Shown piece after piece: positions 49,953 to 64,000 of a DNA stretch of 64,000 nt. Each line of letters opens with the position of its first letter. Within the stretch, counting starts at the first letter, position 1. The position numbers and the translations under genes are program-made. Below the pieces are notes generated by a model. That model was given only the letters and a program-made list of their open reading frames with translations. It ran no database searches and was not told the origin of the DNA. This stretch comes from Nitrospira sp. (GTDB lineage: Bacteria; Nitrospirota; Nitrospiria; Nitrospirales; Nitrospiraceae): assembly GCA_024760545.1 (NCBI GenBank), contig CP060501.1, positions 3,426,036 through 3,490,035 on the forward strand, given 5' to 3'.

Positions 49953-50768
49953 ATGAAGCTGCCATATCTCCCCGATCACGACGACTCCAGCTTTTTCGAC
50001 TTGATCTCCAAACATTATCCGGGGTTGACGCTGGGAAGCCAACACATCGCACCGGTGCCCGAGCACATGCGAGTCCCAGGGTCAATGTCCGTGCCGCATG
50101 CGACGACCGTCTTGGCGCTCAAGTCTCAACAGGGAGTCGTGATTGCCGGTGATCGGCGAGCCACGGAAGGATTTCAGATCGCGGATCGCCGTATCCAAAA
50201 GGTGTTCAAGATCGACGAATGGTCGGCCATGGCCATCGCCGGCGCAGCCGGCCCGTGCATCGAGATGGCCAAATTGTTTCAGACCGAGCTGGAACATTAC
50301 GAAAAGCTGGAAGGGATGCCGCTTTCGTGTGAAGGAAAGGCGAACAAGCTCGGCCAAATGGTCAAGGCCAACCTGCCGATGGTGTTCCAGGGGCTCGTCG
50401 TGATGCCGTTGTACGTCGGCTACGACGAGAAGCGGCGCGAAGGGCGTATCTTCAAGTACGACATCACCGGTGGGAGGTATGAAGAGTCCGACTACCATGC
50501 CATCGGGTCCGGAGGTAAAGACGCGCGCAACACCATGCGTGAGCATTTTCGGAAGAATCTTTCCGAGCAAGAGGCGCTTAAGCTGGCGTTGCTGGCGCTC
50601 TACAATGCGGCCGATGATGATGTCGGGACGGGTGGACCGGACCTGATCCGAGGGATCTATCCGACGGCCAAGTTTGTGACCGCTCAAGGCATCACCGATG
50701 TTCCGGATGACCAACTCAAAGCCGTCTACGACGAGATGATCGTCGTCCGGCGTGCAAGGGAGACGTAA
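49953..50768 (+). CDS. prcB: 20S proteasome beta subunit PrcB
   Basis: A 271-residue beta-type subunit. A propeptide of 50 residues ends at SMSVPHA, then TTVLALKSQQGVVIAGDRRATEG; autocleavage would expose Thr51 as the catalytic nucleophile, with Asp and Lys in the usual strands. The rest (AIAGAAGPCIEMAKLFQ, GYDEKRREGRIFKYD, AIGSGGKDA) matches bacterial PrcB. ATG at 49953 is 24 bases after the dop stop; the open frame further upstream overlaps dop and is not used. prcA follows 2 bases later. Confidence 0.95.
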   Translation: MKLPYLPDHDDSSFFDLISKHYPGLTLGSQHIAPVPEHMRVPGSMSVPHATTVLALKSQQGVVIAGDRRATEGFQIADRRIQKVFKIDEWSAMAIAGAAGPCIEMAKLFQTELEHYEKLEGMPLSCEGKANKLGQMVKANLPMVFQGLVVMPLYVGYDEKRREGRIFKYDITGGRYEESDYHAIGSGGKDARNTMREHFRKNLSEQEALKLALLALYNAADDDVGTGGPDLIRGIYPTAKFVTAQGITDVPDDQLKAVYDEMIVVRRARET

Positions 50769-50770
50769 TC

Positions 50771-51457
50771 ATGCCGATGCCCTATTACGTATCCCCTGAA
50801 CAGATGATGCAGGACAAGGCCGAGTATGCCAGGAAGGGGATTGCCAAGGGCCGTTCGATCATTGCGATGGAATATGTCGACGGCATCCTGTTGACCGCGG
50901 ATAATCCGAGCTCGTCGTTGCACAAAGTTTCTGAAATTTACGACAACATCGCGTTTGCTGGAGCGGGCAAATACAGCGAGTTTGAGAACCTTCGAAAGGC
51001 GGGAATTCGTCACGCCGACCTCAAAGGGTTTATGTACAGCCGCGAAGACGTCACCGGCCGCTCGCTGGCGAACGGGTACTCGCAAAGCCTCGGGACCGTC
51101 TTCAGTCAGGAAATGAAGCCGCTTGAGGTGGAGATTCTTGTCGTCCAGGCCGGCACCAACAGCCACCCGAACGAAATCTACCGTATTTCGTTCGACGGCA
51201 GCATCATCGATGAGAAGAACTTTGCGGTGATCGGCGGAAGGGCAGAAGCGGTGCAGACTGTCCTGAAGGAAAAGAGCCCGAGCCAGGCTCCGTCCCTGGA
51301 CGCGGCGCTCACGCTGTGTGTCACGGCGCTCGAACAGACGGCGAATCAAAAGCTGCCTCCTGAAGGTTTGGAAGTCGCGGTCCTGGATCGAACCCGCATC
51401 GGGCGAAAGTTCCGCCGGCTGGCGATCAATGACATTCGCCGCATCCTCTCTCCCTAA
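50771..51457 (+). CDS. prcA: 20S proteasome alpha subunit PrcA
   Basis: A 228-residue alpha-type subunit that forms the outer rings and gate of the chamber. The start MPMPYYVSPEQMMQDKAEYARKGIAKG, split here as MPMPYYVSPEQMM and YARKGIAKG, matches actinobacterial PrcA. ISEIYDNIAFAGAGKYSEF-type strands, DVTGRSLANGYSQSLGTVF and the C-terminal EVAVLDRTRIGRKFRRL also match. It lacks a catalytic Thr, as expected for alpha. Its last residues (RRILSP) do not form a tag. pafA follows after an 80-base gap with a possible extra promoter. Confidence 0.95.
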   Translation: MPMPYYVSPEQMMQDKAEYARKGIAKGRSIIAMEYVDGILLTADNPSSSLHKVSEIYDNIAFAGAGKYSEFENLRKAGIRHADLKGFMYSREDVTGRSLANGYSQSLGTVFSQEMKPLEVEILVVQAGTNSHPNEIYRISFDGSIIDEKNFAVIGGRAEAVQTVLKEKSPSQAPSLDAALTLCVTALEQTANQKLPPEGLEVAVLDRTRIGRKFRRLAINDIRRILSP

Positions 51458-51486
51458 CCGCAGCCTTTCATGGGAGGCTCCCTTTG

Positions 51487-51515
51487 TTGCAGATCCGCGG
51501 ACGGGCGTGTAATCT
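51487..51515 (+). promoter_or_regulatory. possible internal promoter before pafA
   Basis: TTGCAG (51487-51492), a 17-base spacer and TAATCT (51510-51515), in the longest gap of the operon. Confidence 0.4.
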
Positions 51516-51548
51516 GTTTCTAAGCCTTCCATGACGTCGCCGGGTCCC

Positions 51549-52925
51549 ATGAAACAAAGAATCTTCGGCCTCGAAAATGAGTACGGCCTCATTTTTTCTC
51601 CCAACGGTCGTATCTATCTTCCGATGGAGAAAGTCCTCGGCTACATCTTCGAGGGACTGATTCCAAACAGCTGGCCGTCCAACGCGTTTTTGGTCAACGG
51701 GGCGCGGTTCTATCAAGACACCGGCTGTCATCCCGAGTACTCCACTCCCGAATGTGACAATATCCTCGACCTCGTGGTTCATGACAAGGCAGGAGAACGG
51801 CTTTTGGAAGCCTGTTTGCCCGCGGCTGAGGAGCGGCTTCGGGAGGAAGGGCTGTCCGGAGAAATCTATATTTTCAAGAACAACACGGATTCTCTTGGCA
51901 ACACGTATGGGTGCCACGAGAACTTTCTCATGCGGCGCGACGTGGACTTTTGGAAAGTCACGGAACAGCTCATCCCGTTCTTCGTGACCCGGCAGGTATT
52001 CAGCGGGGCGGGAAAAGTATTAAAAGTATCCGGGAAGCCACAGTATTTCATCTCGCAACGGGCCCAGCATATTCATGAGAAGACGTCGTCATCGACCACG
52101 TCCTCCAGGAGCATCATCAACACCCGCGATGAGCCCCATTCCGATGCGGAGCGCTATCGGAGGCTGCATATCATCGTCGGGGATTCAAACATGTCCGAAT
52201 ACGCGACCTACCTCAAGGTGGGGACGGCGGCGCTCGTCTTGTCGATGATCGAAGAAGGGTACACGGTACACGGGATGGAGCTTGAGGACTCCGTCAAGGC
52301 CATCCGCGAGGTTTCCCGCGATCCAACCCTGAAAAAGAAAGTCAAGCTCGATGACGGCCGGCAACTGACCGCGATCGAAATTCAACGGGTTTACCTGAAG
52401 AGAGCCAGAGAATATCTGATCCAGCAGGCTCACGAACCTATTCTCGAAGATGTGTGCGACAAGTGGGAGACCGTGCTCGATCAGTTGGAGGAAGATCCCA
52501 TGCAGCTCACGCATCAGATCGATTGGGTCACGAAAAAACATTTGATCCAATCCTACGTGGACAAGAAAAATTGCGGCTGGGACGACCCCAGGGTGTTCCT
52601 CTTGGATTTGCAATACCATGATGTGAAGCGGACGCGGGGACTGTATTACTTGATGGAGTCTCGTGGGTTGATCGAACGAGTCGTCGAGGAAGAGGCTGTC
52701 CAACGGGCGATGTCCACCCCGCCGCAAACCACGAGGGCCAAGGTGCGCGGGGACTTCATCCGATTCGCGCGCGCCAAGAATCGATCCTATACCGTGGATT
52801 GGACGTACCTGAAACTCAACGGGTATTGGGAGGAGACGATCCTCTGTATGGACCCCTTCAGCGCAGTCAATCGGCGCGTCGAAGAGTTGATTTCCCAAGT
52901 ATCTGGAGGGCGGTTCTATCGATGA
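51549..52925 (+). CDS. pafA: Pup ligase PafA
   Basis: A 458-residue carboxylate-amine ligase that joins the Pup C-terminal Glu to substrate lysines using ATP. The Glu in FGLENEYG (residue 9) and the catalytic Asp57 in GARFYQDTGCHPEYS are at the positions of characterised PafA. KNNTDSLGNTYGCHENFL, KTSSSTTSSRSIINTRDEPH (substrate and ATP region) and HIIVGDSNMSEYATYLKVG follow. It lacks the Dop loop. ATG at 51549 fits the family start; an in-frame ATG at 51531 is an alternative. The stop overlaps the M23 peptidase start as ATGA. Confidence 0.94.
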   Translation: MKQRIFGLENEYGLIFSPNGRIYLPMEKVLGYIFEGLIPNSWPSNAFLVNGARFYQDTGCHPEYSTPECDNILDLVVHDKAGERLLEACLPAAEERLREEGLSGEIYIFKNNTDSLGNTYGCHENFLMRRDVDFWKVTEQLIPFFVTRQVFSGAGKVLKVSGKPQYFISQRAQHIHEKTSSSTTSSRSIINTRDEPHSDAERYRRLHIIVGDSNMSEYATYLKVGTAALVLSMIEEGYTVHGMELEDSVKAIREVSRDPTLKKKVKLDDGRQLTAIEIQRVYLKRAREYLIQQAHEPILEDVCDKWETVLDQLEEDPMQLTHQIDWVTKKHLIQSYVDKKNCGWDDPRVFLLDLQYHDVKRTRGLYYLMESRGLIERVVEEEAVQRAMSTPPQTTRAKVRGDFIRFARAKNRSYTVDWTYLKLNGYWEETILCMDPFSAVNRRVEELISQVSGGRFYR

Positions 52926-53917
52926 GGCCGACGCGAGGGCTGAATACTCGTTGCCGTGCCCTGCTGAGCCGTGTTGCGCTCGGCGCCGCCGTTCTGCTCG
53001 CCGGCAATCTTCCAGCCGACCTTTTTTCAGGCTCCTTACCGGTTCCTTCAGGGTTCGATGGTCAATATCGTGGAAAGCAGGGACAAATCCTCGTCATCAA
53101 GGTTTCTGCCGATGATACGGTCACCCAGGTACAGGGACAGTTCCTGGGCCGCTCCCTCAGCTTTTTCCCGGATACTCGGCCTGAAGAAGCGAAAGGATTC
53201 GTCGGATTGCTTGGGATCGATCTGCAGGACGAGCCGGGACATCATGAACTGGCCGTCGAGGTAAAGACCGGGGAACAGAGTCGTACCTTGCGGTACCAGG
53301 TCGTGGTCCTGAAAGAGAAGTTTCATGTCGAGCACCTCACGCTGCCTAAAGACAAAGTGGACTTGGACGACAAGAGTTTGGCTCGCTGGAAAGCGGAGCA
53401 GGAGCAGGTGAAGGAGGCGTTGGCGACGGATTCCCAGAGCAAACTATGGCAGCCGGGTTTTGTGGAGCCGGTGAACGGGAAACGAACCGGGATTTTTGGA
53501 AGTGTCAGAATCATGAACGGTCAGGCGCGCAATCCGCACAATGGCGAAGACATCGGCGCTCCGCTGGGCACCGTGGTTGCGGCGACGAATGATGGTGTTG
53601 TGCGGCTCACCGTCGATCATATCTTCTCTGGGAAGGGCGTGTTTCTGGACCACGGATTGGGTTTCTATTCGATGTATTTCCATCTGTCCGAAGTCCTGGT
53701 CAAGGACGGCGATCATGTGAAGGCCGGCCAGATCGTCGGAAAAGTGGGGGCGACCGGACGAGCCACGGGTCCCCATCTGCATTGGGGGGTCAAGCTCAAC
53801 GGTGCGCGCGTGAATCCCTATGCCTTGTTGGACCTGCCGTTCAAGAGTGTGACCCAACCGGCGGTTTCAATGCCCGTCTCGGATGCTCCTCCCAGTGTGA
53901 GTACATTATCTCCATAG
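52922..53917 (+). CDS. exported M23 metalloendopeptidase
   Basis: A 331-residue peptidoglycan hydrolase-type protein. An N-terminal membrane segment (VALGAAVLLAGNLPADLF) is followed by an Ig-like beta domain and a C-terminal LytM domain with intact zinc ligands: PHNGEDIGA (His and Asp) and GPHLHWGV (HxH). This contrasts with the degenerate LytM protein at 41418. ATGA overlap with pafA means translational coupling to the proteasome operon, a link whose meaning is unknown. It probably acts on the cell wall. Confidence 0.9.
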   Translation: MRPTRGLNTRCRALLSRVALGAAVLLAGNLPADLFSGSLPVPSGFDGQYRGKQGQILVIKVSADDTVTQVQGQFLGRSLSFFPDTRPEEAKGFVGLLGIDLQDEPGHHELAVEVKTGEQSRTLRYQVVVLKEKFHVEHLTLPKDKVDLDDKSLARWKAEQEQVKEALATDSQSKLWQPGFVEPVNGKRTGIFGSVRIMNGQARNPHNGEDIGAPLGTVVAATNDGVVRLTVDHIFSGKGVFLDHGLGFYSMYFHLSEVLVKDGDHVKAGQIVGKVGATGRATGPHLHWGVKLNGARVNPYALLDLPFKSVTQPAVSMPVSDAPPSVSTLSP

Positions 53918-53958
53918 TTGCGACCGGTTTCATTTCTGTTCTTCCACACGATTTCCGG

Positions 53959-53987
53959 TTGACCTCGTCCCACCGTGGGCATACCCT
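53959..53987 (+). promoter_or_regulatory. possible promoter of the small membrane-protein gene
   Basis: TTGACC (53959-53964), a 17-base spacer and TACCCT (53982-53987), 21 bases before the ATG at 54009. Confidence 0.4.
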
Positions 53988-54008
53988 TTTGGGTGTGGGG
54001 CATGAGAC

Positions 54009-54281
54009 ATGAGAATCTTCTTGTTTGTCCTCTCGGTGCTCTCCCTCCTGCTGGCCGCGCAGCGATTTTCGATCGCTGAGCACACCGGGCAGCATAAGGG
54101 AGGACTCTTCTTTCTCCTCATCGGCATTCAGCTCCTGATCGCCGCAGCACTTATCGGTGGCCATCGAGAAGAACAGGCATCCAAGTCACCGACGTCGAAG
54201 GATGAAGGAGACAACAACGAAACCGAGGGAAGTGCCGGGAGGGCCTTGAGAGAACAAGAGAAGAAGTCTGGAGGGAAATGA
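54009..54281 (+). CDS. small two-helix membrane protein
   Basis: A 90-residue protein with two hydrophobic helices (IFLFVLSVLSLLLAAQ and GLFFLLIGIQLLIAAALIGG) and a hydrophilic Lys/Glu-rich tail (SAGRALREQEKKSGGK). Function is unknown. Its last 17 codons and the following intergenic bases have a decayed copy at 58897-59021, where TGG is now TGA. It may be coupled to the next gene by proximity. Confidence 0.6.
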   Translation: MRIFLFVLSVLSLLLAAQRFSIAEHTGQHKGGLFFLLIGIQLLIAAALIGGHREEQASKSPTSKDEGDNNETEGSAGRALREQEKKSGGK

Positions 54282-54362
54282 TCTCGCCGAAGTGGAGCTT
54301 ATAGATCCCCGTCAAGACTGATATCTTTCTGACCGTCCTCGCCAAAAGCGAGACATTTCCGA

Positions 54363-55439
54363 ATGAAGATTGACCAAGCAACGAAAGACTACGAAAAATG
54401 GCTGAGAAGACAGATCCCGCTGGTACCCTCAGACCTCCGTTTGAAGCACTCCTTCATGAAACGAAACAGCTTTGCCTTCCTCCGGGCGACATTTTACCGA
54501 TGGATGCAGGTGTGGGTTGAAGTCTGTGCGGATTTGGCCACAGCGCCGGTCCTGCGGGCAATTGGGGACCTGCATGTGGAGAACTTCGGCACGTGGCGCG
54601 ACAGCGAAGGCCGTTTGATTTGGGGAATCAACGATTTCGATGAGGCATACCCACTCCCTTACACAAACGATCTCGTACGATTGGCGGCAAGTGCGAAGCT
54701 AGCGGTCACCGCCGAGCATCTCCTCACCAAGCCAAGGAATGCCTATGATGCCATCCTGACAGGCTACACGGAGGGGTTGAAGTCAGGTGGCCGACCGTTT
54801 GTGTTGTCCGAGCAGCATCCATGGCTGCGTGATATTGCAACCAACTCCCTCCGCGACCCGGTGAGGTTCTGGCGCAAAATGCAGACCCTTCCGGTTGTAC
54901 AAGGATCGGTTCCTCAAGCAGCCATGGCGGGACTCGATTTCATGATGCCGGAAGCGGGTCTGTCGTATAGTCTTCGGCGTCGGGTTTCGGGCTTGGGAAG
55001 TTTAGGACACCCCCGATTTGTGGCACTGACGAACTGGCGTGGAGGTATGATTGCCAGGGAAGCCAAGGCACTCGTCCGCTCCGCCTGTTCGTGGGCCCGG
55101 AGTGGACAGGGAAGCAATGAGATTTTGTATTCTACGATGTTAGAGCACGCCGTCCGCTGTCGAGATCCCTTTGTGCGGATGGAGGGAATCTGGCTCCTTC
55201 GCCGGCTTTCCCCTTATTGCTCCCGGATTGAACTCACGGCACTGCCGCGTAAACGAGACGAAGACAAGCTTTTGTATGCCATGGGCTGGGAAACTGCGAA
55301 TGTGCATCTTGGAGATCCCAAGGCGATTAAAGACATACAGCGTGACCTCGCAAAGCGAAAGGGCAAGTGGTTGATGAAGGCTGCGAAAGCGATGACGCGG
55401 GCCACCATCACGGATTGGCAGGATTGGACGAAGAGATAG
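54363..55439 (+). CDS. DUF2252 family protein
   Basis: A 358-residue soluble protein of the DUF2252 family, whose fold resembles protein kinases. The hallmarks are FMKRNSFAFLRATFYRW, AIGDLHVENFGTWRD (the Asp of a catalytic-like loop) and WGINDFDEAYPLP (second acidic motif). Later TNWRGGMIAREAKALV is typical. Function is unknown. It has no clear ribosome site. A family 3 repeat follows its stop. Confidence 0.85.
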   Translation: MKIDQATKDYEKWLRRQIPLVPSDLRLKHSFMKRNSFAFLRATFYRWMQVWVEVCADLATAPVLRAIGDLHVENFGTWRDSEGRLIWGINDFDEAYPLPYTNDLVRLAASAKLAVTAEHLLTKPRNAYDAILTGYTEGLKSGGRPFVLSEQHPWLRDIATNSLRDPVRFWRKMQTLPVVQGSVPQAAMAGLDFMMPEAGLSYSLRRRVSGLGSLGHPRFVALTNWRGGMIAREAKALVRSACSWARSGQGSNEILYSTMLEHAVRCRDPFVRMEGIWLLRRLSPYCSRIELTALPRKRDEDKLLYAMGWETANVHLGDPKAIKDIQRDLAKRKGKWLMKAAKAMTRATITDWQDWTKR

Positions 55440-55467
55440 TGCTGCTATTGGGGAAATCCAAGTAGAG

Positions 55468-55530
55468 TGCTCTCGCCTCAAAAACTCTGTACATTTCAGA
55501 AAAGTGGTGGCCGATTTCTCAGGTTGGAGC
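55468..55530. repeat. family 3 dispersed repeat, copy A
   Basis: Shares TGCTCTCGCCTCAAAA, CATTTCAGAAAAG and GATTTCTCA blocks, in order, with copies at 56357 and 59028. It lies just after the DUF2252 gene. This copy has lost the GGGTTT arm. Confidence 0.55.
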
Positions 55531-55560
55531 GAAGTCCCCTACCCTCGTGCAGTCACACCT

Positions 55561-55962
55561 CTACCTCATTGATGGGTCACGGTTCAATTCCCTGACCGCT
55601 GGATCAGCACTCGGCGTCGTCGGAACCCCTCCATAAATGGTTTCACTGTAGGGCGAAGTCGGGGATCCAGACGATTCTTTATGATAGGAGGGGTCAGAGG
55701 ATTTTCCGCCGTATCGAGGGTCATTACTGGGTGAACCATAGGTAGATTCACCTGGCTGGCGGGATTGAGCACCTGGCATGGCCCCCTGCTGGGAGCTTGC
55801 AGCGTCGGGCCTCAAGATGCCTCCAGACATCCCGGAATACGCATCGGCCACCTTATGGATCAACGTCTCTCTTTGCCAACCTTCGGCAAGGCTATCGGAA
55901 AGGTTGACTGCTCCGGTTACTGCGAAGATCGCCAAGGCTGTCAATACGTGCTTCTGCCTCAT
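55561..55962 (-). CDS. small exported Ser/Pro/Tyr-rich protein
   Basis: A 133-residue secreted protein. A signal peptide (VLTALAIFAVTGAVNLSDSLA) is followed by a short helix and a low-complexity region rich in Ser, Pro, Gly and Tyr (SSQQGAMPGAQS and SPYSETIYGG). No domain is recognised. AAGGAGG lies 5 bases before the ATG at 55962. Confidence 0.6.
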   Translation of the reverse strand: MRQKHVLTALAIFAVTGAVNLSDSLAEGWQRETLIHKVADAYSGMSGGILRPDAASSQQGAMPGAQSRQPGESTYGSPSNDPRYGGKSSDPSYHKESSGSPTSPYSETIYGGVPTTPSADPAVRELNRDPSMR

Positions 55963-56422
55963 CGCATCCTCCTTATCCACGTATCGTTAAACTGCTGTTT
56001 CTCTCATAACATCGTAGCGCACGATATTGCACGACTACAAGAGCATTGGCAACCTGCCGTTCGGGATTCCCTTTAAACCGGCTGTCGCATGAGCCGAACC
56101 GTAGTGGTCCCAAGCACTTCAGAAACTGACTTCGGTTTCCGGCACACAGCTCTTATCCAACAGGAAATACACCGGACAGAACTCCGTGAACGCACCTAGA
56201 TCAGACTGAAGCCGATCACGCCAAGTACAAGTAACTAGGAAAGGATGGCAGGCCGATTCGCCAGTCCTGTCCGCATCCGTCATGTTGTAGAGTGAATCAG
56301 GCCAACTTACCAACTCATTTCCGCTGACACCAAAACCGGTTGTTTTTGATTTGGTCTGCTCTCGCCTCAAAACCCCTGCAAATTCGAAAAGAGCGGGGAG
56401 TCGATTTCTCAACGGGTTTAGA
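55963..56422. other. gene-poor stretch with a family 3 repeat
   Basis: About 460 bases between two minus-strand genes. It contains the family 3 copy at 56357-56420. An open minus frame at 56119-56412 could encode 97 residues but lacks a recognised domain or ribosome site. Nothing else is supported. Confidence 0.5.
56357..56420. repeat. family 3 dispersed repeat, copy B
   Basis: Best-preserved copy: TGCTCTCGCCTCAAAACCCC, CAAATTCGAAAAG, GTCGATTTCTC and GGGTTT in order, with inverted AAACCC and GGGTTT arms. It abuts the 3' end of the minus-strand lipoprotein gene. Confidence 0.6.
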
Positions 56423-57013
56423 TTACTTGGAGGTTTTTACCCCCTCGGCAATTTCAACTTCGTCTGCTTTCTTACCCTTCCCTAGTAGAATTTCTGCTAC
56501 CGCTGCTGCGAATCCTTCCTCGACCTCTTCAATCTTGGTACCCATCCCATAAAGGCCTCCCCATGCGAAGGTCTTGTTCACTTCATATTTTCCTACCACC
56601 TCAGATTTATCGCGGTCCTGCAGCGTTAGGGTTCCGTCAATGTGCATTTGTCCCAACCCGGCCAGGAGGAACCGCAAAAACGCATTGCCCTTATCATAAT
56701 TCGTAACTTCGACCATGGCATTGAGCGTGTTAGGACTAGGATTAGCGACGTTCAACTCTTTAAAGCGATTAGTCACCTGCAGTTGTCGAACGATGTTGTT
56801 AACGAGCCGTTCCCGATCGGTCTGTATCATGGGGACTTCGTTCCTGTTAGTGGCTTCAATATGGAGATTGGTGTATCGCTCAATCGTTGTTCCTGCCTTT
56901 AGTGGGATGACTGGTTCGTAAGATCCCGGGGAATGTGCGCAAGCGGAAACTGAGAGTCCGACAACGACAAAGAACCAAACTTTCACTCGCCGCATGTAGA
57001 CACTGCTTATCAT
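56423..57013 (-). CDS. DUF4410-like lipoprotein
   Basis: A 196-residue lipoprotein. The N-terminus (VKVWFFVVVGLSVSACAHS) ends in an SACA lipobox. The mature part resembles DUF4410 and related periplasmic proteins (VNNIVRQLQVTNRFKEL, NAMVEVTNYDKGNAFLRFLL, AAAVAEILLGKGKKADE). Function is unknown. ATG at 57013 follows GAGGGAAGTC; the longer frame starting at 57052 lacks a site. Confidence 0.7.
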   Translation of the reverse strand: MISSVYMRRVKVWFFVVVGLSVSACAHSPGSYEPVIPLKAGTTIERYTNLHIEATNRNEVPMIQTDRERLVNNIVRQLQVTNRFKELNVANPSPNTLNAMVEVTNYDKGNAFLRFLLAGLGQMHIDGTLTLQDRDKSEVVGKYEVNKTFAWGGLYGMGTKIEEVEEGFAAAVAEILLGKGKKADEVEIAEGVKTSK

Positions 57014-57866
57014 GACTTCCCTCTCAAGAGTGGATTGATAGGCTACCGACAATGATGTTCATAGAACGGTCATAGGTAGGTTTAGAGTTCCGGCACTAAC
57101 AACCGTAGTATCGATCTACGCACCGTCCTATTTTTCATCGTTAAAGCATGTGCTCCGACCCTGTGCACGTGAAGTGGGAAATCGCGATTTAGGATGAATC
57201 GTATATTGCAAATGTATGAATACCCAGAAGTTTTGAGAAATGGTCCGCTCAGAGTTAGAGTCGGCGTCGGTCGGCATCGAATGAGGTGGGCGATTTGACT
57301 CCACTTTCGCGGAGAAATGTGACCTGGTTACGTTAAGATCACAGGGATGGAAACTTCCCGTCGTGTGGGGATGTGAGATTCGGCTAGGGAATAGCTAAAA
57401 AGAAGGCAACCATTGTCTCGGAATGGGTCCTTCATTCGAACATGTTGGATGTGCTCATCTGCTGTTCAAGCCCACCTCACTCCACCCCACTCGGGCCTAT
57501 TCCAGCTAACATCGAGTTCAAGTCTTACTATTGGATATGCTTGGCCTGAATGAGTCTGAGTAGGCTGGAAGAGGGTAGACGAAAAGCTTTCCTCGACCGC
57601 GGGTCGTCTTACGCGCAATGACCCTCCGATCGTTGCCCAGCTCCCGCGGGTGAGAAGTCAATTTGATCGTATCTCCAATACACTATACAAACATCTTCCC
57701 ACAGATGACGCAAATTGAGTGCATGGCGACACGTCTGTGCGGGTCAGTGGCATTCTGAGTCGCTGTAGTGCGTGATCCGCGATATCGACCTCGCCTCCCC
57801 CCGAGGAAAATGCGTGACCACCAACGCCAAGTGCCAATCGGCGTACATGCATGCACACCGATGCAT
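57014..57866. other. long gene-poor region with a family 2 repeat
   Basis: About 850 bases without a supported gene. The family 2 repeat copy lies at 57463-57604. The remainder is relatively A/T-rich and carries only short open frames without ribosome sites. No transposase motif, tRNA or CRISPR was recognised. Confidence 0.55.
57463..57604. repeat. family 2 imperfect palindromic repeat, copy 1
   Basis: About 142 bases sharing the order TGNTCAAGCCCAC, CTCCA/TCCAACTCCAGC, GGCCTGA, GAGTAGG, TGGAA, AAAAGCTTTCCT and CGCGGGT with the copy at 62652. The left CCTATTCCAGC pairs with the right GCTGGAAGAGG, so the element can fold on itself. Confidence 0.6.
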
Positions 57867-58361
57867 TCAGCGGATTGGGTGGATATCGACAACAATGTTG
57901 TCTTCATTCAACTCTACTTGCACGAGTTGACCTTCCTTGAGAACAGCCAGCCTGCTGCCGGCAGATTCATCCACAGCAAAAGTTTGCTTCCGTCCCGCAG
58001 TGTTGATCTCGATGACTTCCCAGAGCCGGTCCGCATAAGACAACTTGCCAGCGATGCTGTGATGCCCTGCAGCTGGAACATCTTTCCTGTGCAGATCGAT
58101 CAACAGGTTGTTATCATCGATGACCAAGATAACCTCATCTCCCACCTTGGCTTGGGATAGCCCCATGCGCTCCGCCTTGTGGATGCTCACTTCACGATGC
58201 CCCAGCCGCTCCGTTGATTTGAAATACATGAGCCCTGATTGGATCTTTTCGATCGTGGTCGTGAGCTGTTGATGCGCGGGCGGCTCGGTTTGGCCGGCCA
58301 CACTCCCACCCCACGCGAGACCTATCGCCACAATAATGATGATGACAAGAATGGGGCGCAT
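57867..58361 (-). CDS. exported hypothetical protein
   Basis: A 164-residue protein with a signal peptide (ILVIIIIVAIGLAWGGSVAG) and a beta-rich mature region containing two SH3-like segments (KVGDEVILVIDDNNLLIDL and KEGQLVQVELNEDNIVVDI). These may be tandem repeats of one module. No family is recognised. AAAGGAGGGG lies before the ATG at 58361. Its first 40 bases overlap the RRM-like frame at 58322-58654 on the same strand. Confidence 0.6.
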   Translation of the reverse strand: MRPILVIIIIVAIGLAWGGSVAGQTEPPAHQQLTTTIEKIQSGLMYFKSTERLGHREVSIHKAERMGLSQAKVGDEVILVIDDNNLLIDLHRKDVPAAGHHSIAGKLSYADRLWEVIEINTAGRKQTFAVDESAGSRLAVLKEGQLVQVELNEDNIVVDIHPIR

Positions 58362-58654
58362 AATTCCCCTCCTTTCATCTCTTCCCCAGTAGAGGGAGGA
58401 GACCATCGCGTGTACTGTCCAGAGAACAGGTCGAGTCTTCGCTCTTTCAGTCGGTTCCGGTTGAAGGCCATCGTTATTTCTTCAGCCTTCTCTGACAAGC
58501 CTATCTCGACAAACTGATTGCCCAATGGCTGACCGCTGGTCTTGATCTTGATCACACATGCCGAAGTGACCGTGCGCTCTGGCGCACGGAGTAGGCGAGA
58601 CCACATGTCCATCACGGAACTTGTCAGGCGCTCCACATAAATCCTTGGACTCAT
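58322..58654 (-). CDS. diverged RRM-type protein, possibly non-functional
   Basis: A 110-residue frame that aligns without gaps to the RRM protein at 32364 over the first 50 residues: MSPRIYVERL with MGAKIYVGGL, VTSACVI with VASARII, SGQPLG with TGQSRG, and QFVEI with GFVEM. RNP-1 is changed from RGFGFVEM to LGNQFVEI, losing the Phe that stacks on RNA. The C-terminal part has no Gly-rich tail. It overlaps the next gene by 40 bases. The frame may be a decaying duplicate or a rewired relative. GAGG lies 5 bases before the ATG. Confidence 0.5.
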   Translation of the reverse strand: MSPRIYVERLTSSVMDMWSRLLRAPERTVTSACVIKIKTSGQPLGNQFVEIGLSEKAEEITMAFNRNRLKERRLDLFSGQYTRWSPPSTGEEMKGGELCAPFLSSSLLWR

Positions 58655-58841
58655 GTGTGCCTCATGAAGAGAGGTGCAGGCTAATTATGGCGTTAGAGCG
58701 GCGGAGACTGAAAGAGGGTTGCCCAAGCAAGCTCCAGGACACGCAAGGGCAAGACCAGTCAACGCGGCTGGAACGTCTTAGTTAAATGCTAGGCGCATAG
58801 AGGCGGCTTCGTCAAGCAGTATCTCCAGGGTACTCATCTTG

Positions 58842-58884
58842 TGCTCGATCCTACCTTATTCCACCTCTCTCTGGCCTACTCCAG
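58842..58884. repeat. family 2 repeat, left-half fragment
   Basis: Forty-three bases that align without gaps to the left part of the copy at 57463 (33 of 43 identical by eye). The right half is missing, and the gene relic begins 12 bases later. Confidence 0.5.
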
Positions 58885-58896
58885 GGAGCCGGGTCG

Positions 58897-59021
58897 AGTG
58901 CCGGGAAGGCTTTGGAGGATAACGAGAAGAAGTCTTGAGGGAAGTGGTCTCGCCGAATCGGAGCTGCTAGTGCGCCATCAGGTCCAACGTATCTTTCTAG
59001 CCGTGCTCGCAGAAGACATTT
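58897..59021 (+). pseudogene. decayed copy of the end of the 54009 membrane-protein gene
   Basis: Reads SAGKALEDNEKKS then a TGA then GK, matching SAGRALREQEKKSGGK of the intact gene, with TGG changed to TGA. The similarity continues through the intergenic bases TCTCGCCGAA, ATCTTTCT, GCTCGC and GACATTT in the same order. The first about 74 codons are absent. This is a partial duplication now in decay. Confidence 0.7.
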
Positions 59022-59027
59022 ATGGCA

Positions 59028-59092
59028 TCCGCGTCCAAAACCCTTGTAAATTCAAAAGTAGAGATAGTCGATTTCTCGAGGGGTTTGAATTA
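59028..59092. repeat. family 3 dispersed repeat, copy C
   Basis: CAAAACCCTTGTAAATTCAAAAG, split here, followed by AGTCGATTTCTC and GGGGTTTGAATTA, matching copy B. The AAACCC and GGGTTT arms are kept. It lies directly after the decayed gene end. Confidence 0.55.
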
Positions 59093-59302
59093 TCCTAAAG
59101 CCCGTTCAAAAACTAATAACTTGGGAACGGGAGAGATGAAGCATCGCGCAGCCCTCAAAATGAGACTATCTATATGAGTGGTCGAAGCCCCATGCCGGGA
59201 CTCATTCGACTGTAAGAATTGCAGCCTTTGGACGACGAACCGATAGGTCATGTCAGACCACTAGTAGACTCAGCGGTACTCTCCACAGGAACAGAGGTGG
59301 CC

Positions 59303-59986
59303 ATGAAGATCACGGAGATCTGGAGATATCCGGTTAAGACAATGGCAGGCGAGAAACTGCAACGGGTACGCATTGGGCCGCTCGGAATTGAAGGCGACCG
59401 AGTTGTACATGTCGAGGACGCCCGGGGACGGGTAATCACCTCACGCTCTCATCCACGTTTCCTGGGTCATAAGGGTACGCTGGGTCTGGATGGCGAACCT
59501 CTGGTGGACCGTCGACCATGGGACAGTCCAGAGGTCGCCGTCGAGGTCACAGATATAGCTAGCCCAGGCGCGAAGCTGGTGCGCTACGACGGCATTGAAC
59601 GCTTCGATGTACTGCCGTTGCTGGTGGCCACCGACGGTGCCATCGCCGCCTTCGGTCACGACCATCGCCGCTTGCGGCCCAACCTCGTGATCGGTGCCGT
59701 CCAGGGATTGACTGAGCGCGAATGGCCAGGCGGCTGCTTGCGTATCGGCACGGTGCTCATTGGGGTCCAGGATTTGCGCCTACGGTGCATCATGACTTCG
59801 TACGATCCTGACACGCAAGTCCAAGACAAAGAAATCACCCGCGGCATCTATCGGAGGTTCGAGGGCAAACTCGCGCTCAATTGCTTCGTGATCGAGAGCG
59901 GCGAAATCTCTGTGGGCGACAATGTGCAACTAGTCCGTGGCCGTGCTTGCGCTGAATCCGCCGCTGCCGCAGTCTTCACCGAGTAG
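59303..59986 (+). CDS. MOSC-domain protein
   Basis: A 227-residue protein with an N-terminal MOSC beta-barrel (ITEIWRYPVKTMAGEKLQ) and a MOSC domain. The conserved Cys in LRCIMTSYDPDTQ would hold sulfur or a molybdenum-cofactor ligand. Family members (YcbX, mARC-like) reduce N-hydroxylated compounds or handle Moco sulfur. GLTEREWPGGCLRIG is typical of the second half. ATG at 59303; a longer frame upstream lacks support. An alpha/beta hydrolase follows 32 bases later. Confidence 0.85.
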   Translation: MKITEIWRYPVKTMAGEKLQRVRIGPLGIEGDRVVHVEDARGRVITSRSHPRFLGHKGTLGLDGEPLVDRRPWDSPEVAVEVTDIASPGAKLVRYDGIERFDVLPLLVATDGAIAAFGHDHRRLRPNLVIGAVQGLTEREWPGGCLRIGTVLIGVQDLRLRCIMTSYDPDTQVQDKEITRGIYRRFEGKLALNCFVIESGEISVGDNVQLVRGRACAESAAAAVFTE

Positions 59987-60018
59987 CCTAACCAAGCCCA
60001 ACAACAAGAGAGGTTCTA

Positions 60019-60915
60019 ATGAACTACGTACCCGCCATCACAGACACCACAGTGCGGACCGGAACCATCGAGGTCCAAGGGCTCAACATCTTTTACCGCG
60101 AAGCGGGTAGGCCCGGTAGTCCCAAGCTTGTGTTGCTCCACGGCTTTCCAGCCTCATCGCATCAATACCGCAACCTCATTCCAGCGCTGGCACACAAGTT
60201 CCATGTCATCTCGATGGATTACCCCGGCTTCGGCAACAGCGCCTTGCCAGATCCGACCGAGTACTCATACACCTTTGACAAGACCTCGGACGTGGTCGAG
60301 GGTTTTCTGAACCAAAAAGGCTTCACCCGCTTCGGTCTCTTCGTGCAGGACTACGGCGGTCCGGTGGGCTTCCGCATCCTTGCGCGCCGCCCGGAATGGT
60401 TGGAATGGCTGATCGTCCAGAATACCAACGCCTATGAGGAGGGTTTCACGGCCGCCTGGGATGGTTTCCGCAACGCGCTGTGGAAGAAACGGACACCCGA
60501 ATCGGAAAAGCCGCTCATGGGCTTCCTGGAAGTGGACGCTATCCGAAGCATTTATCTCCACGGGCACAAGAAACCGGAGTTGATCAGCCCGGACAACTGG
60601 AACATGGATGCTTGCTGCATGGGGCGTCCGCAGGCGCGGCGGATACAGATGGAATTCTTTTATGACTACCGCAACAACGTCACCCTCTATCCGAAGTGGC
60701 AAGAGTTTCTGCGCAGTCGCAGTCCCAAGACCATCATCTTCTGGGGCCAGGACGACATCTTCTTCACCCGCGAAGGCGGCGAGGCCTATTTCCGGGATTT
60801 GCCCCAGGCTGAAATGCATCGGCTCGATTCAGGCCACTTCGCGGTAGAGGACTGCCTAGAGTACATCGCCAGAAACATCCGTCGATTTTACGACGAGAAG
60901 GTGGCTGTCAGGTAG
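60019..60915 (+). CDS. alpha/beta hydrolase (dehalogenase/epoxide hydrolase-like)
   Basis: A 298-residue hydrolase. LHGFPASSHQYRNL is the oxyanion motif, the nucleophile is Asp111 in FVQDYGGPVGF and the His is in DSGHFAVED, with the acid in FWGQDDIFF. An Asp nucleophile is typical of haloalkane dehalogenases and epoxide hydrolases rather than esterases. The halide-stabilising residues cannot be assigned, so the substrate is unknown. No signal peptide. Confidence 0.88.
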   Translation: MNYVPAITDTTVRTGTIEVQGLNIFYREAGRPGSPKLVLLHGFPASSHQYRNLIPALAHKFHVISMDYPGFGNSALPDPTEYSYTFDKTSDVVEGFLNQKGFTRFGLFVQDYGGPVGFRILARRPEWLEWLIVQNTNAYEEGFTAAWDGFRNALWKKRTPESEKPLMGFLEVDAIRSIYLHGHKKPELISPDNWNMDACCMGRPQARRIQMEFFYDYRNNVTLYPKWQEFLRSRSPKTIIFWGQDDIFFTREGGEAYFRDLPQAEMHRLDSGHFAVEDCLEYIARNIRRFYDEKVAVR

Positions 60916-61309
60916 TGGGGTTATGGGACATGGCGACCTGGACTGAGTTTCCGTGCGCCGGTCAGCGTGGCCGTAGTGTGAAACCGCCAAACCTTCATTC
61001 CAGCGGCCCGGCTAAAGCCAGCGGTTGAAGTTACATGTCCTGTAGTTAATCGAGTCTGCAGATCTACATAGTGCCCATCAGAATATGGAGAGGAGCAAAT
61101 TGCTTAAAGCAGTTCGGGGATACGGCGCCCACTCCCATTTGTTCACGGGCTTCCCAATGATGTCTCATGGCAACGTGTTCGTCTGGATATATCAGAATTT
61201 GTGCGACTAAAGTACGCCAAACATCCCGCTTGGATTACGCTTTCTAGCGGGTCCCGTCTCGTAAGAGATGGAACAAGTAACATCGATAAAATTCTAGTTC
61301 AGGACGTCA
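60916..61309. other. gene-poor stretch with possible gene remnants
   Basis: About 390 bases between the hydrolase and the oxidoreductase relic. An open frame from a GTG at 61201 encodes a plausible but unidentified segment (WITLSSGSRLVRDGTSNIDK) that runs into the relic region. Upstream of it, GAGAGGAGC precedes a short frame. No intact gene is supported. Confidence 0.4.
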
Positions 61310-61908
61310 ATGGCACCATCAATGAAAACGTCAAGAAGGTTGTTGCCGACATTCAAAATCGAAAGAGCTATCCAGAGACACACGCGCATCATCGTGACAC
61401 ACTATGGCGAACTGGATGCCATTTGTGTGGTTGACGAAGAGTGCCCCGAGCCGAAAAGTGGTGAAGTGCGGGTGAGAGTGTTGGCCGCAGGGGTCTCCTT
61501 GCCCGACCTGATGGTGCGGGAGGGCATCCATCCCGAAACGCCTCCACTGCCCTTCACGCCCGGGTGGGATTTAGTGGTTGAGGTGGATCGACTCGGCGCA
61601 GGTGTCTCCGGAGGTGAGCCAGGTCAGATGGTTGCCGCGCTGCCGATTCGAGGTGCGTACGAGGAATTCGTCTGCCTGCCACCCGATGAACTGGTGCCCG
61701 TACCATCGGGGTGAAACCGGTGTTGTTTCAACAAGATTTGATCGCCCTCTTCGAGCTCCTACACCAGCGGAAGATCCAGCCGTTGATCGCGCAGCGAATC
61801 CCATTTCCCAAGGCAAGGCGCGCACATGAGTTGCTCGGGACGGGAGGGGTGATAGGAAAGATCGTGCTTGTGCCCAACGAGTCGTCGCTTGAGTCGGGCG
61901 CATCATAG
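61310..61908 (+). pseudogene. zinc-type alcohol dehydrogenase/quinone reductase relic with internal deletion
   Basis: Two halves of a medium-chain (MDR) oxidoreductase in different frames. Part one (61394-61714) has the GroES-like domain: GEVRVRVLAAGVSLPDLMVREG, split here, FTPGWDLVVEVD, and ends at TGA. Part two (61711-61908) has the C-terminus: LFELLHQRKIQPLIAQRIP and ELLGTGGVIGKIVL. The Rossmann domain between them, about 140 residues in this family, is missing and the frame shifts at the junction. The nucleotide-binding GxGxxG is absent, so it is inactive. Confidence 0.78.
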
Positions 61909-61950
61909 CAACGCCGTCCAGCTTTGGCACTACGTACGCGACGTAATACT

Positions 61951-62610
61951 ATGTTCGCAGGCCACATCGGTGCAGCACTAGCCATCGGGCGGGCGGAACG
62001 GCGCGTCAATCTCGGTATTCTGGTCTTTGCCGCACTCCTCCTTGATGTCATGCTCTGGACCTTCATTCTTTTGGGGTGGGAATCAGTCGTCATTCGTGAC
62101 AACTTTGCTGCCACCCACCAGCCGGAGTTTATCTTCCCCTATTCGCACAGTCTGCTCGCGGCCATTGCATCGTCCGCCCTGGCTGGTGCCGCCGCCTTCC
62201 TTTGGTATCCGCGAATGAACTCGCTGAAGTTACGCGCGGCGGTTTGCGTCGCCACTGCTGTCTTCTCACACTGGCTCCTGGATGCGCTCGTGCATATTCC
62301 CGAGCTACCGCTAGCGGGAGAGAATTCGTTAAAGGTGGGGCTTGGCATGTGGAGCAGAATGCCGGTGGCGCTCTCCGTCGAGGCGTTCATCACCATAGCG
62401 GGACTTTGCCTGTTTCTTGCCGGCAACCCAATCTCGCGAGCCAGGAAATTCTGGGTGACGGCACTGGCGTGTTCTCTGATGGCCTTCACTGCAGTTGGGA
62501 TGACGGTTGCACCACCACCGCCTTCGGTCATGACAATGGCTTCCAGTTCGCTGGCCACCATCATAGTGGTCTGCGTGCTTGCCGGATGGCTGGGGAAACG
62601 AGCACCGTGA
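61951..62610 (+). CDS. polytopic membrane protein of the YdjM/DUF457 hydrolase type
   Basis: A 219-residue membrane protein with about six helices. An N-terminal FAGHIGAALAIGRAE, FPYSHSLLAA and HWLLDALVHIPELP resemble the metal-binding His/Asp set of YdjM/DUF457 membrane hydrolases. The ATG at 61951 begins the conserved His segment. Function is unknown. It precedes a family 2 repeat. Confidence 0.7.
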   Translation: MFAGHIGAALAIGRAERRVNLGILVFAALLLDVMLWTFILLGWESVVIRDNFAATHQPEFIFPYSHSLLAAIASSALAGAAAFLWYPRMNSLKLRAAVCVATAVFSHWLLDALVHIPELPLAGENSLKVGLGMWSRMPVALSVEAFITIAGLCLFLAGNPISRARKFWVTALACSLMAFTAVGMTVAPPPPSVMTMASSSLATIIVVCVLAGWLGKRAP

Positions 62611-62651
62611 AGCATGAGCCGAACCATGCTCCGCTAATTATCCCCATTTTG

Positions 62652-62794
62652 TGCTCAAGCCCACATCACACCAACTCATCCCATCCAACTCCAGCCAAGA
62701 AGGTGCTTTGGTTTAAACTACTGATAGCATTGGCCTGAGTGAGCCTGAGTAGGATGGAATGGGACAGCTAAAAAGCTTTCCTAACCCGCGGGTT
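62652..62794. repeat. family 2 imperfect palindromic repeat, copy 2
   Basis: About 143 bases aligned with the copy at 57463; left CATCCCATCCAACTCC pairs with right GTAGGATGGAATGGGA. It fills most of the gap between two convergent genes and may form a large hairpin in RNA. Confidence 0.6.
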
Positions 62795-62864
62795 CTATAA
62801 GTTGTTTTAATAGTCGAACAGTATGCGCCGATGGTGAGGTTTGCAGTCTGACTGTTCGATTCTC

Positions 62865-63185
62865 TCAATACACAATCGCCGGGCGTTTACCTTTGACGAT
62901 CAACAGTAGCCGTTTGAATTGTAACGGCTTGTCGGGATCACGCGTATAGTGGGTGGGATCTTCTGAGACTTCGACGTCGCTGAGCGGGAGCGACAGCTTC
63001 TGTTTGAGGTGCGGCACGGTCGTTTCCAACGCCACATCCACCAGCCGCTCCGTGCAGGCGAGCACCTCGCTGTTGATATCGCGCTGATCGTCAAACTGGA
63101 CGGTGACCCGTTCTTCAGGGTTGATCCAGGGGGTGATGAGGGCTACCTTTTCTGCGCGGCTCATGGCGGAGGGAGTGTCCATCAT
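62865..63185 (-). CDS. hypothetical soluble protein
   Basis: A 106-residue protein of unknown function. It has an acidic helical start and a short basic end (KRLLLIVKGKRPAIVY). No membrane segment, Cys pair or motif is recognised. It is in the same orientation as the exported gene at 63244, 58 bases downstream. Confidence 0.5.
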   Translation of the reverse strand: MMDTPSAMSRAEKVALITPWINPEERVTVQFDDQRDINSEVLACTERLVDVALETTVPHLKQKLSLPLSDVEVSEDPTHYTRDPDKPLQFKRLLLIVKGKRPAIVY

Positions 63186-63243
63186 GCTGCATCATACTCC
63201 CAGACGTTCCCTCAATGGCACTCGGATTTTCCCTCAGTGTTTC

Positions 63244-63615
63244 CTATTCCGGCGAGATGCCCAATCCTCCCAGCAGCGGCATGAGGCTGTCCTCCCCAGG
63301 TCCTTTTCCCTCCTTCGAGGCTGTGCTGATCTCAGAGAGTAGTTGCTCTGCTTCGGGACTCAGTTGCCGTAACTTCTCTCCAAGATGACCGGACATCAGT
63401 CCTTGCTTGATCTCGTTGTCCGTGAGTTTGCCGTCTTTGATCCCTTGTTGGAGGATCTGTGCCAGCGATTGGACCTTTGCCAGGACGTCGGGAGGCATCC
63501 CCTTCAGGATGTTGGCTGCATCCTGTCGGCCAGCCCCGAGTTGGGCATAGCATGGAACGGCCAACCACATTGAAAGCGCCACAATCGCGATCATCTGCTT
63601 CCCTGTCAATGCCAT
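63244..63615 (-). CDS. small exported hypothetical protein
   Basis: A 123-residue exported protein with a signal peptide (MIAIVALSMWLAVPCYAQ) and a helical, Lys/Glu/Gln-rich mature part (VQSLAQILQQGIKDGKLTD and LSPEAEQLLSEI). AAGGAGG lies before the ATG at 63615. Family unknown. Confidence 0.6.
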   Translation of the reverse strand: MALTGKQMIAIVALSMWLAVPCYAQLGAGRQDAANILKGMPPDVLAKVQSLAQILQQGIKDGKLTDNEIKQGLMSGHLGEKLRQLSPEAEQLLSEISTASKEGKGPGEDSLMPLLGGLGISPE

Positions 63616-63801
63616 CGCCGCCTCCTTCGTTTGACATGACGACCAAGTCATCCCCCAAATGCTGCATGATGTTTGCCAGTTTTAGACGAGAATGGAAGGA
63701 GCACTGGGTCGGAGGGTGGGGGAGCACGCGCTTCAACCGCCGAAGGCGGCACGACTCCGTACTCATTGATCAAACAGCGAATTCTTTAGGCGACTCGTCT
63801 G

Positions 63802-63826
63802 TTAGTTGGTATTGTCTATCAACTAA
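63802..63826. promoter_or_regulatory. inverted repeat upstream of the last gene
   Basis: Perfect TTAGTTG and CAACTAA arms separated by 11 bases, ending 10 bases before the GGAGG-type ribosome site. It may be an operator or a leader hairpin. Confidence 0.35.
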
Positions 63827-63850
63827 TCCTGTAGGTGGAGGAGCGCGCCG

Positions 63851-64000
63851 ATGCTTGACGGCTGGGTATTTCCGGACATAACGGTTCATTTGGTGGCCAT
63901 CCTCTGCCTACTCGTCGTGTGGCAGTACTACCAGATGCAAATCATGGCTGGTCGCATTCTTGCCGTCGATATCTTCGATCGCTCCGGCATTCGTATGTAT
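63851..64000 (+). CDS. N-terminal part of a membrane-anchored protein (runs off the edge)
   Basis: Fifty codons from an ATG with GGAGG nearby to the window edge. One hydrophobic segment (VHLVAILCLLVVWQYY) near residues 11-26 may anchor it. The rest is not visible and the family is unknown. Confidence 0.6.
   Translation, partial: MLDGWVFPDITVHLVAILCLLVVWQYYQMQIMAGRILAVDIFDRSGIRMY

Follow-up and report, generated by a model that had tools for sequence, protein, structure and literature searches.

A second gene end inside a cargo hotspot of Nitrospira

Introduction

Why does the end of a small gene recur about 4.6 kb downstream of the gene to which it belongs? The window analyzed here is the 64,000-nucleotide stretch of Nitrospira sp. 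contig CP060501.1 (assembly GCA_024760545.1) that runs from position 3,426,036 to 3,490,035 of the forward strand, and all coordinates count from its first letter unless stated otherwise. An earlier note, made from these letters alone, had read the segment at 58897-59021 as a decayed duplicate of a small membrane-protein gene end, copied from an intact gene upstream and separated from it by repeats. Three features raise the question:

54009..54281, forward strand: small membrane-protein gene, intact, 90 aa, left border of the hotspot (ORF; orthologues in relatives)
54231..54358, forward strand: copy 1 of the gene end, with 77 bp downstream (alignment)
58885..59021, forward strand: copy 2, called the relic, with 17 codons of the gene end, a stop and 83 bp beyond (alignments; genome search; relatives)

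The membrane nature of the 90-aa protein is predicted from its sequence; the protein has no Pfam or NCBIfam match, and its best named match (91%) is from Nitrospira sp. BO4.

Results

Two homologous gene ends

Local alignment of 54231-54358 with 58897-59021 yields 99 identical columns of 131 and a score of 62, against a best score of 19 among 1000 shuffles of the relic side, while a whole-genome search with 58780-59130 as query returns the gene-end pair at E 4.9e-16. The claimed repeat some 4.6 kb away is therefore real, and its similarity survives statistical alignment. The gene end turned up at no other place of the 4.81-Mb genome (two contigs) in this search, whose two other matches (E 1e-4 and 4e-4) fall outside it. 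The relic reads GAGSSAGKALEDNEKKS-stop, with no frameshift or stop within its 17 codons, in agreement with the SSAGKALEDNEKKS-stop ending reported earlier; comparison with relatives carries its homology to the gene slightly further left, to about 58885-58888. Because the two copies differ by 24%, versus a median of 0.2% between our genome (G000) and a sister strain of the same species (G091), we regard the event that produced them as old.

The intact gene has lost its ancestral stop at 54270-54281, where TCTGGA stands for TCTTGA (TGA to GGA), and extends three residues further to end in SGGK-stop. The intact gene of the sister strain still reads TCTTGA, indicating that the loss is recent, and the relic ends in EKKS-stop, as do the small genes of G001, G012 and the sister strain, which are intact.

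A cargo hotspot between fixed border genes

Three conserved genes frame the locus:

51531..52925, forward strand: Pup ligase gene, conserved locus anchor (PF03136, E 6e-158)
52799..53917, forward strand: M23 peptidase gene, also a conserved anchor, with an uncertain start codon and an ORF that overlaps the Pup ligase gene (PF01551)
62865..63185, reverse strand: fam1, conserved 106-aa ORF, right border of the hotspot (family common to relatives)

The Pup ligase gene occupies the same place in relatives whose contigs reach that far, and the M23 peptidase gene precedes the small gene in 17 of 19 relatives' loci, the exceptions being G004, whose contig starts at the small gene, and a second locus of G032 (L044). 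The latter (G032:C196) holds a second relative of the small gene, with no M23 match in the ~2.5 kb upstream.

We compared 19 loci, our own included, over at most 12 kb behind the small gene (24 kb in our genome), leaving out G004 and also G020, in which the gene is only partly matched. Conserved right-hand genes (the 106-aa fam1, the 255-aa fam5, the 472-aa fam0 and others) are reached in 15 of these loci, and the genes lying between them and the small gene vary from genome to genome. Occupants encode proteins of 203 aa in G010, 748 aa in G016, about 220 aa in G031 and G018, and 415 aa in G012; G019 carries three genes, a recurring element termed B and a 253-aa ORF, and G024 is empty, with zero cargo genes between the borders. 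One cargo family each is common to G012 and G001, to G016 and G007, and to G031 and G018. In our genome the interval extends from 54282 to about 62865. With differing accessory genes between the same two core genes, the locus is a transfer hotspot in the sense of PMC5635113, and the comparison strongly supports the small gene as the fixed left border of a variable cargo hotspot in Nitrospira. Element B stands ahead of the right-hand genes in two of the 19 loci (G000, G019), and a second recurring element, A, stands behind the small gene in six (G000, G001, G028, G034, G019, G100), so that most hotspot occupants show neither end.

Two cargo blocks and a seam

The hotspot of our genome holds two blocks, of which block 1 (54359-58884, ~4.5 kb) encodes the DUF2252, 139-aa, DUF4410 and 179-aa proteins. 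Blastn found no DNA similarity between the blocks other than A and B. The features are as follows:

54363..55439, forward strand: DUF2252 protein, block 1 cargo (PF10009, E 1e-28)
55466..55523, forward strand: element A, degenerate (18.1 bits, E 0.007)
55561..55980, reverse strand: 139-aa protein, block 1 cargo (tblastn 45-52% to L153, L135 and L139)
56356..56419, forward strand: element A, degenerate (20.0 bits, E 0.002)
56423..57052, reverse strand: DUF4410 protein, cargo (PF14366)
57450..57603, forward strand: element B, complete, tRNA-Arg-like core at its right end (117 bits)
57867..58406, reverse strand: 179-aa protein, cargo (ORF; no Pfam or NCBIfam match)
58831..58884, forward strand: left half of element B, joined to the relic at the palindrome centre (27.9 bits)
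59015..59121, forward strand: element A, well preserved, left end of block 2 (match 59020-59119, 70.9 bits)
59303..59986, forward strand: MOSC-domain protein, block 2 cargo (PF03473, PF03476)
60019..60915, forward strand: alpha/beta hydrolase, block 2 cargo (PF00561)
61310..61714, forward strand: 134-aa ORF with an ADH_N domain, block 2 cargo (PF08240)
61924..62610, forward strand: 228-aa ORF, block 2 cargo (ORF; no Pfam match)
62642..62792, forward strand: element B, complete, right end of block 2 (107.6 bits)

The repeats that the earlier note saw between the two gene ends are the degenerate, dispersed copies of A and B that this list places upstream of the relic. At the seam near 58885, B is cut at the centre of its palindrome, its right half and core are missing, and a possible microhomology of 2-3 bp can be read by eye. 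The four genes of block 1 match no integrase family in Pfam or NCBIfam, and no Rfam family reaches its gathering threshold in positions 50000-64000 of the window. Among the fetched loci of relatives, block 1 proteins occur only in G000 and the sister strain, save for the 139-aa gene, whose relatives lie in or beside A/B units of other genomes, and a 33-aa stretch of DUF2252 (L161); in these fetched loci, to which the search for block 1 proteins was confined, no donor layout with the small gene followed by DUF2252 but without a relic was seen.

The relic and element A as a proposed older left shoulder

The alignment of the relic with relatives runs on through A, with 70% over 232 columns in G001, 67% over 228 in G019 and 65% over 229 in G028. 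In these three genomes the gene end and ~170 bp beyond it, A included, are contiguous with the intact gene, and in the relic, as in all three relatives, the match to A begins no more than ~40 bp from the gene end, a distance counted from the end of the protein match and approximate because model start positions differ. Since the same layout is found directly behind the intact gene in G001, G019 and G028, the relic and A together look like an older left shoulder of the hotspot, now displaced. A displaced gene end thus lies past the far side of the insert, as it does for e14 in icd. Of the duplication and decay proposed earlier, two parts stand, namely a pair of homologous gene ends with one on an intact gene, and an old event; the assignment of the intact gene as source and of the far copy as its decayed daughter does not, as the far copy with its A has the layout of the relatives and has kept the older stop. 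The ~125 bp compared are too little to settle the direction of copying, and the import considered below could sit on the relic side.

Divergence from the sister strain

The median difference between G000 and G091 over 108 background windows, each of 500 bp, is 0.2% (95th percentile 1.4%). Over 53501-54500, which covers the 3' part of the M23 gene and the small gene, two 500-bp windows differ by 7.6 and 7.2%, and the seam window at 58501-59000 differs by 7.3%, with 0.6% in the next; one listed window elsewhere reaches 4.4%. The excess in the flanking core genes (7.2-7.6% versus the 0.2% median) may be a sign of recombination, seen as divergence in one strain pair. Inside block 1 the values are 0.2-2.6% over 54501-58000 and 3.8% at 58001-58500, and this patchiness suggests that later exchanges overprinted the first event.

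The differences are also unevenly spread within the two gene ends. Between the strains, 7 of 54 coding sites and 2 of 83 downstream sites differ in the relic, compared with 6 of 51 and 7 of 75, respectively, in copy 1, which, as far as these two strains' sequences tell, is not the even pattern of simple decay. Divergence many times the background extends over 52900-54700 and 56300-58960, ending inside the relic; a recombination tract probably covers the left part of the hotspot.

Elements A and B across the genus

Profile models with 107 positions for A and 155 for B were run against 79 genomes at E 0.01, with strict filters that miss weak copies, and found A in 36 of the 79 and B likewise in 36. 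B is palindromic, as its antisense model matches as well, and 77 B places were kept for pair counts once antisense or weaker overlapping matches had been removed. Outside our own hotspot and that of the sister strain there are 69 A places, 25 of which have a same-strand B within 7 kb downstream, versus about 0.24 such ordered pairs expected by chance from a rough density estimate. None of the 69 has a same-strand B upstream, and two have an opposite-strand B, one of them together with an ordered B. Taking all 79 A places, 32 are ordered, two reversed (both in our own hotspot, in G000 and the sister strain) and five have an opposite-strand B, while 44 have no B within 7 kb, some owing to contig ends. 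The fetched loci give 29 ordered pairs, two reversed (both in the window) and five opposite; the sister-strain locus (L105) was left out of these counts, of the A-flank alignments and of the unit and B listings.

Where A has a partner B, the two usually share a strand, with A upstream by 0.6-6.5 kb and changing cargo between them. Each unit has its own cargo, apart from one unit that G019 and G067 have in common; members of the 139-aa family are found between A and B in both G101 and G001, and a further one lies close to a B in G016. The left and right flanks of A-B units never showed similarity above the best of 100 shuffles in 28 testable pairs (among the 29 ordered pairs, the two window copies of A share one B, L118 and L144 are the same unit, and one pair at a contig edge is untestable). 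A crude motif scan flagged no integrase inside A-B units, and no PF00589 place fell inside one among six genomes searched. Because copies of A occur at unrelated sites upstream of B, we set aside as the main explanation the idea that this ~100-bp element is merely a terminator or an RNA.

Several genomes carry differing A/B units at a second cargo hotspot (L136, L144, L118, L138, L153), situated before a gene that we take from its sequence to be P450-like. When this site was probed with the joined flanks of the G067 unit, 55 of 79 genomes matched somewhere, and G092, G086, G085, G011, G006 and G023 matched across the joint, which indicates that the site is empty in these six; at the joint, these empty sites have diverged too far to reveal the exact target base. 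The right-flank match begins at the last base of B in G019 (whose unit is the query's), G066, G012 and G020, as it does by construction in G067, and begins further right in others, such as G061, G007 and G101. In G066 the A and B models found nothing.

Two further observations concern the surroundings of B. Many copies (in L130, L113, L161, L132, L137, L106, L146, L149, L050, L145, L108) have a recurring sequence (AGTCTGTCCC..AACCATCTGATT) to their right, which is possibly the other arm of an attachment site. In L114, L150, L151 and L152 the left half of B enters a common sequence (GCGAAG.GAGCACCATCT) at the same central point, as if an insertion sequence preferred the centre of the B palindrome; in L150 the right half of B resumes 367 bp after the left half.

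Element B and tRNA-Arg(CCT)

The right end of B, GCTTTCCTAAACCGCGGGTCGTA, resembles the anticodon arm of our genome's own tRNA-Arg(CCT) and the bases after that arm, and B runs directly into the 3' half of this tRNA in G062, G001, G085, G011 and G061. Given this resemblance and this junction, the best reading of B is as the right-hand attachment end of elements that use tRNA-Arg(CCT). First ARAGORN scans found no tRNA gene adjoining B in the stretches scanned, and a later scan found a complete tRNA-Arg(CCT) in two of eight stretches. In G011 and G061 the complete tRNA lies 2-3 kb upstream of B with integrase remnants beside it (PF00589 at E 2e-14 in L154; 22.4 bits, below the cut-off, in L150); the fetched stretches of G062, G001 and G085 contain no complete copy.

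Outside the window, at G000:C1:3786673-3787343, our genome encodes, immediately ahead of tRNA-Arg(CCT), an intact tyrosine integrase of 391 aa, which is a candidate mover of the A/B units, and G011 has an integrase of the same length (391 aa) beside its own tRNA-Arg(CCT). None of the 22 PF00589 places of our genome lies within the window.

A and B are probably the ends of integrative cargo units with relatives at tRNA-Arg(CCT). A bolder reading, to which we give somewhat less than even credence, is that they delimit, left and right, small mobile cassettes of 0.6-6.5 kb that form an undescribed family, in which B comprises the tRNA-Arg(CCT) attachment arm and core, moved in trans by an integrase encoded elsewhere. 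Titles and abstract openings in the Nitrospira mobile-element literature brought up no paper describing A or B, and the bracketing pair may be undescribed so far.

Origin of the relic

We favor, by a modest measure, the reading that the relic is a displaced older left shoulder, left by homology-facilitated illegitimate recombination, as defined in PMC3240628, or by a very similar process. The ancestral order would have been gene, gene end, A, MOSC/hydrolase block, B and fam1. DNA arriving from another Nitrospira lineage would have carried the same gene with its own end, followed by the DUF2252, 139-aa, DUF4410 and 179-aa genes. One end of this import would have been anchored by homology in the region of the M23 and small genes, and an illegitimate joint, placed at the midpoint of a B palindrome, would have linked its other end to the resident gene end. 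In this way the small gene would have acquired the incoming tail and cargo, and its old tail would have been stranded 4.5 kb downstream as the relic. Such an import explains why the similarity starts abruptly within the gene, why the copies differ by 24%, why the block is unrelated, why the older shoulder lies downstream and why the joint falls in a palindrome. It is supported by the concentration of G000-G091 differences at the 3' part of M23 with the small gene and at the seam, by the older stop retained in the relic and by the sharing of only A and B between the blocks; the mechanism overall is moderately supported.

An unlikely alternative is site-specific integration into the 3' end of the gene. 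An element whose right end was B would have inserted among the last codons of the gene, bringing a replacement end and displacing the old one to its far side, as prophage e14 did in icd. The junctions of B with the 3' half of tRNA-Arg(CCT) in five genomes, together with the complete tRNA and integrase remnants upstream in G011 and G061, show the same order at tRNA loci as here, that is, a restored gene, cargo, B and a displaced end, and the string GCGGGTCG of the tRNA core corresponds to GGGTCG in the relic. Displacement of the tRNA is, however, shown in those two genomes only, and at our seam the right half of B and the attachment core are missing. Neither the block 1 genes nor the 22 PF00589 places place an integrase in the window's hotspot, and flank similarity is absent from all 28 testable A-B pairs. 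The core-like GGGTCG looks like ordinary variation, as the sister strain has GAGTCG in its place. Relatives and the sister strain vary ordinarily at this string, and the idea that a site-specific crossover took place at it within the gene end was accordingly dropped.

Plain duplication would have placed a copy of the gene end 4.6 kb downstream (in tandem with later deletion and divergence, or ectopically), where it then decayed, and needs no foreign DNA. The copies remain alike past the stop, in 59 of 84 columns, whereas in seven of the nine relatives that match copy 1 the similarity ends within ~10 bp of the stop, which fits copying within the genome. A simple tandem duplication is nevertheless argued against by the blocks, which share no duplicated DNA besides the gene end, A and B, and the relic is attached to A, the flank found behind the intact gene in G001, G019 and G028, and has the older stop codon. 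We therefore consider plain duplication improbable as well.

That A/B cassettes were added singly by a recombinase acting in trans, in the manner of integrons, with the relic a passenger from another chromosome, seems to us very improbable: several A-led units do stand in a row in the window, the 139-aa gene recurs between A and B in two other genomes and the chromosome encodes its own intact integrase beside tRNA-Arg(CCT), but at A places outside the small-gene locus the sole match to the relic query (G021 C19) covers the A part only, and flank alignments inspected by eye show no small-gene end at other A copies.

Discussion

A displaced older shoulder left by import, the reading we prefer, has counterparts in known systems, and the relic is a fresh instance of a known scar type. 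Integrons, too, have small cargo units in a row with a palindromic site at one end. Unlike integrons, the array described here has two different ends, A and B, and no integrase beside it (none of the 22 PF00589 places is in the window). For Vibrio T6SS effector-immunity arrays, PMC5361080, which also compares such arrays with integrons, proposes such a one-sided mechanism for displaced 3' parts and calls it rare elsewhere. As in those arrays, a module would here be anchored upstream by homology and the old 3' part orphaned downstream; in contrast to them, there are no effector-immunity genes and the joint lies in a palindromic element end. In the e14/icdC case, as given in PMC11148124, a 165-bp segment is duplicated with 12 nucleotide exchanges, the gene end is replaced and the old end is stranded at the far side of the insert, as here, whereas in our block no prophage or integrase is seen, the core is absent and 24% of columns differ, rather than 12 of 165 nucleotides.

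According to PMC5635113 (Oliveira et al. 2017), transfer hotspots occur without recognizable mobile elements and their flanking core genes recombine more. The Nitrospira locus resembles the hotspots of that account in its variable cargo between fixed core genes and perhaps in recombination at the flanking core genes, and differs from them in that part of the cargo is bracketed by the recurring ends A and B.

An ordinary import event seems to have left the seam. The seam records one exchange at a gene-swapping site and suggests what the old end was, which cargo came in and where the joint fell. More widely, A and B offer a sequence handle for finding swapped cargo in Nitrospira, which are important nitrite oxidizers. 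Many Nitrospira genomes have been assembled from metagenomes, where the limits of mobile units are hard to draw. Should the cassette reading of A and B be true, the hotspot of the window would be a natural tandem cassette array and the relic the scar of one replacement, and genus-wide exchange of cargo with separate left and right ends would become testable.
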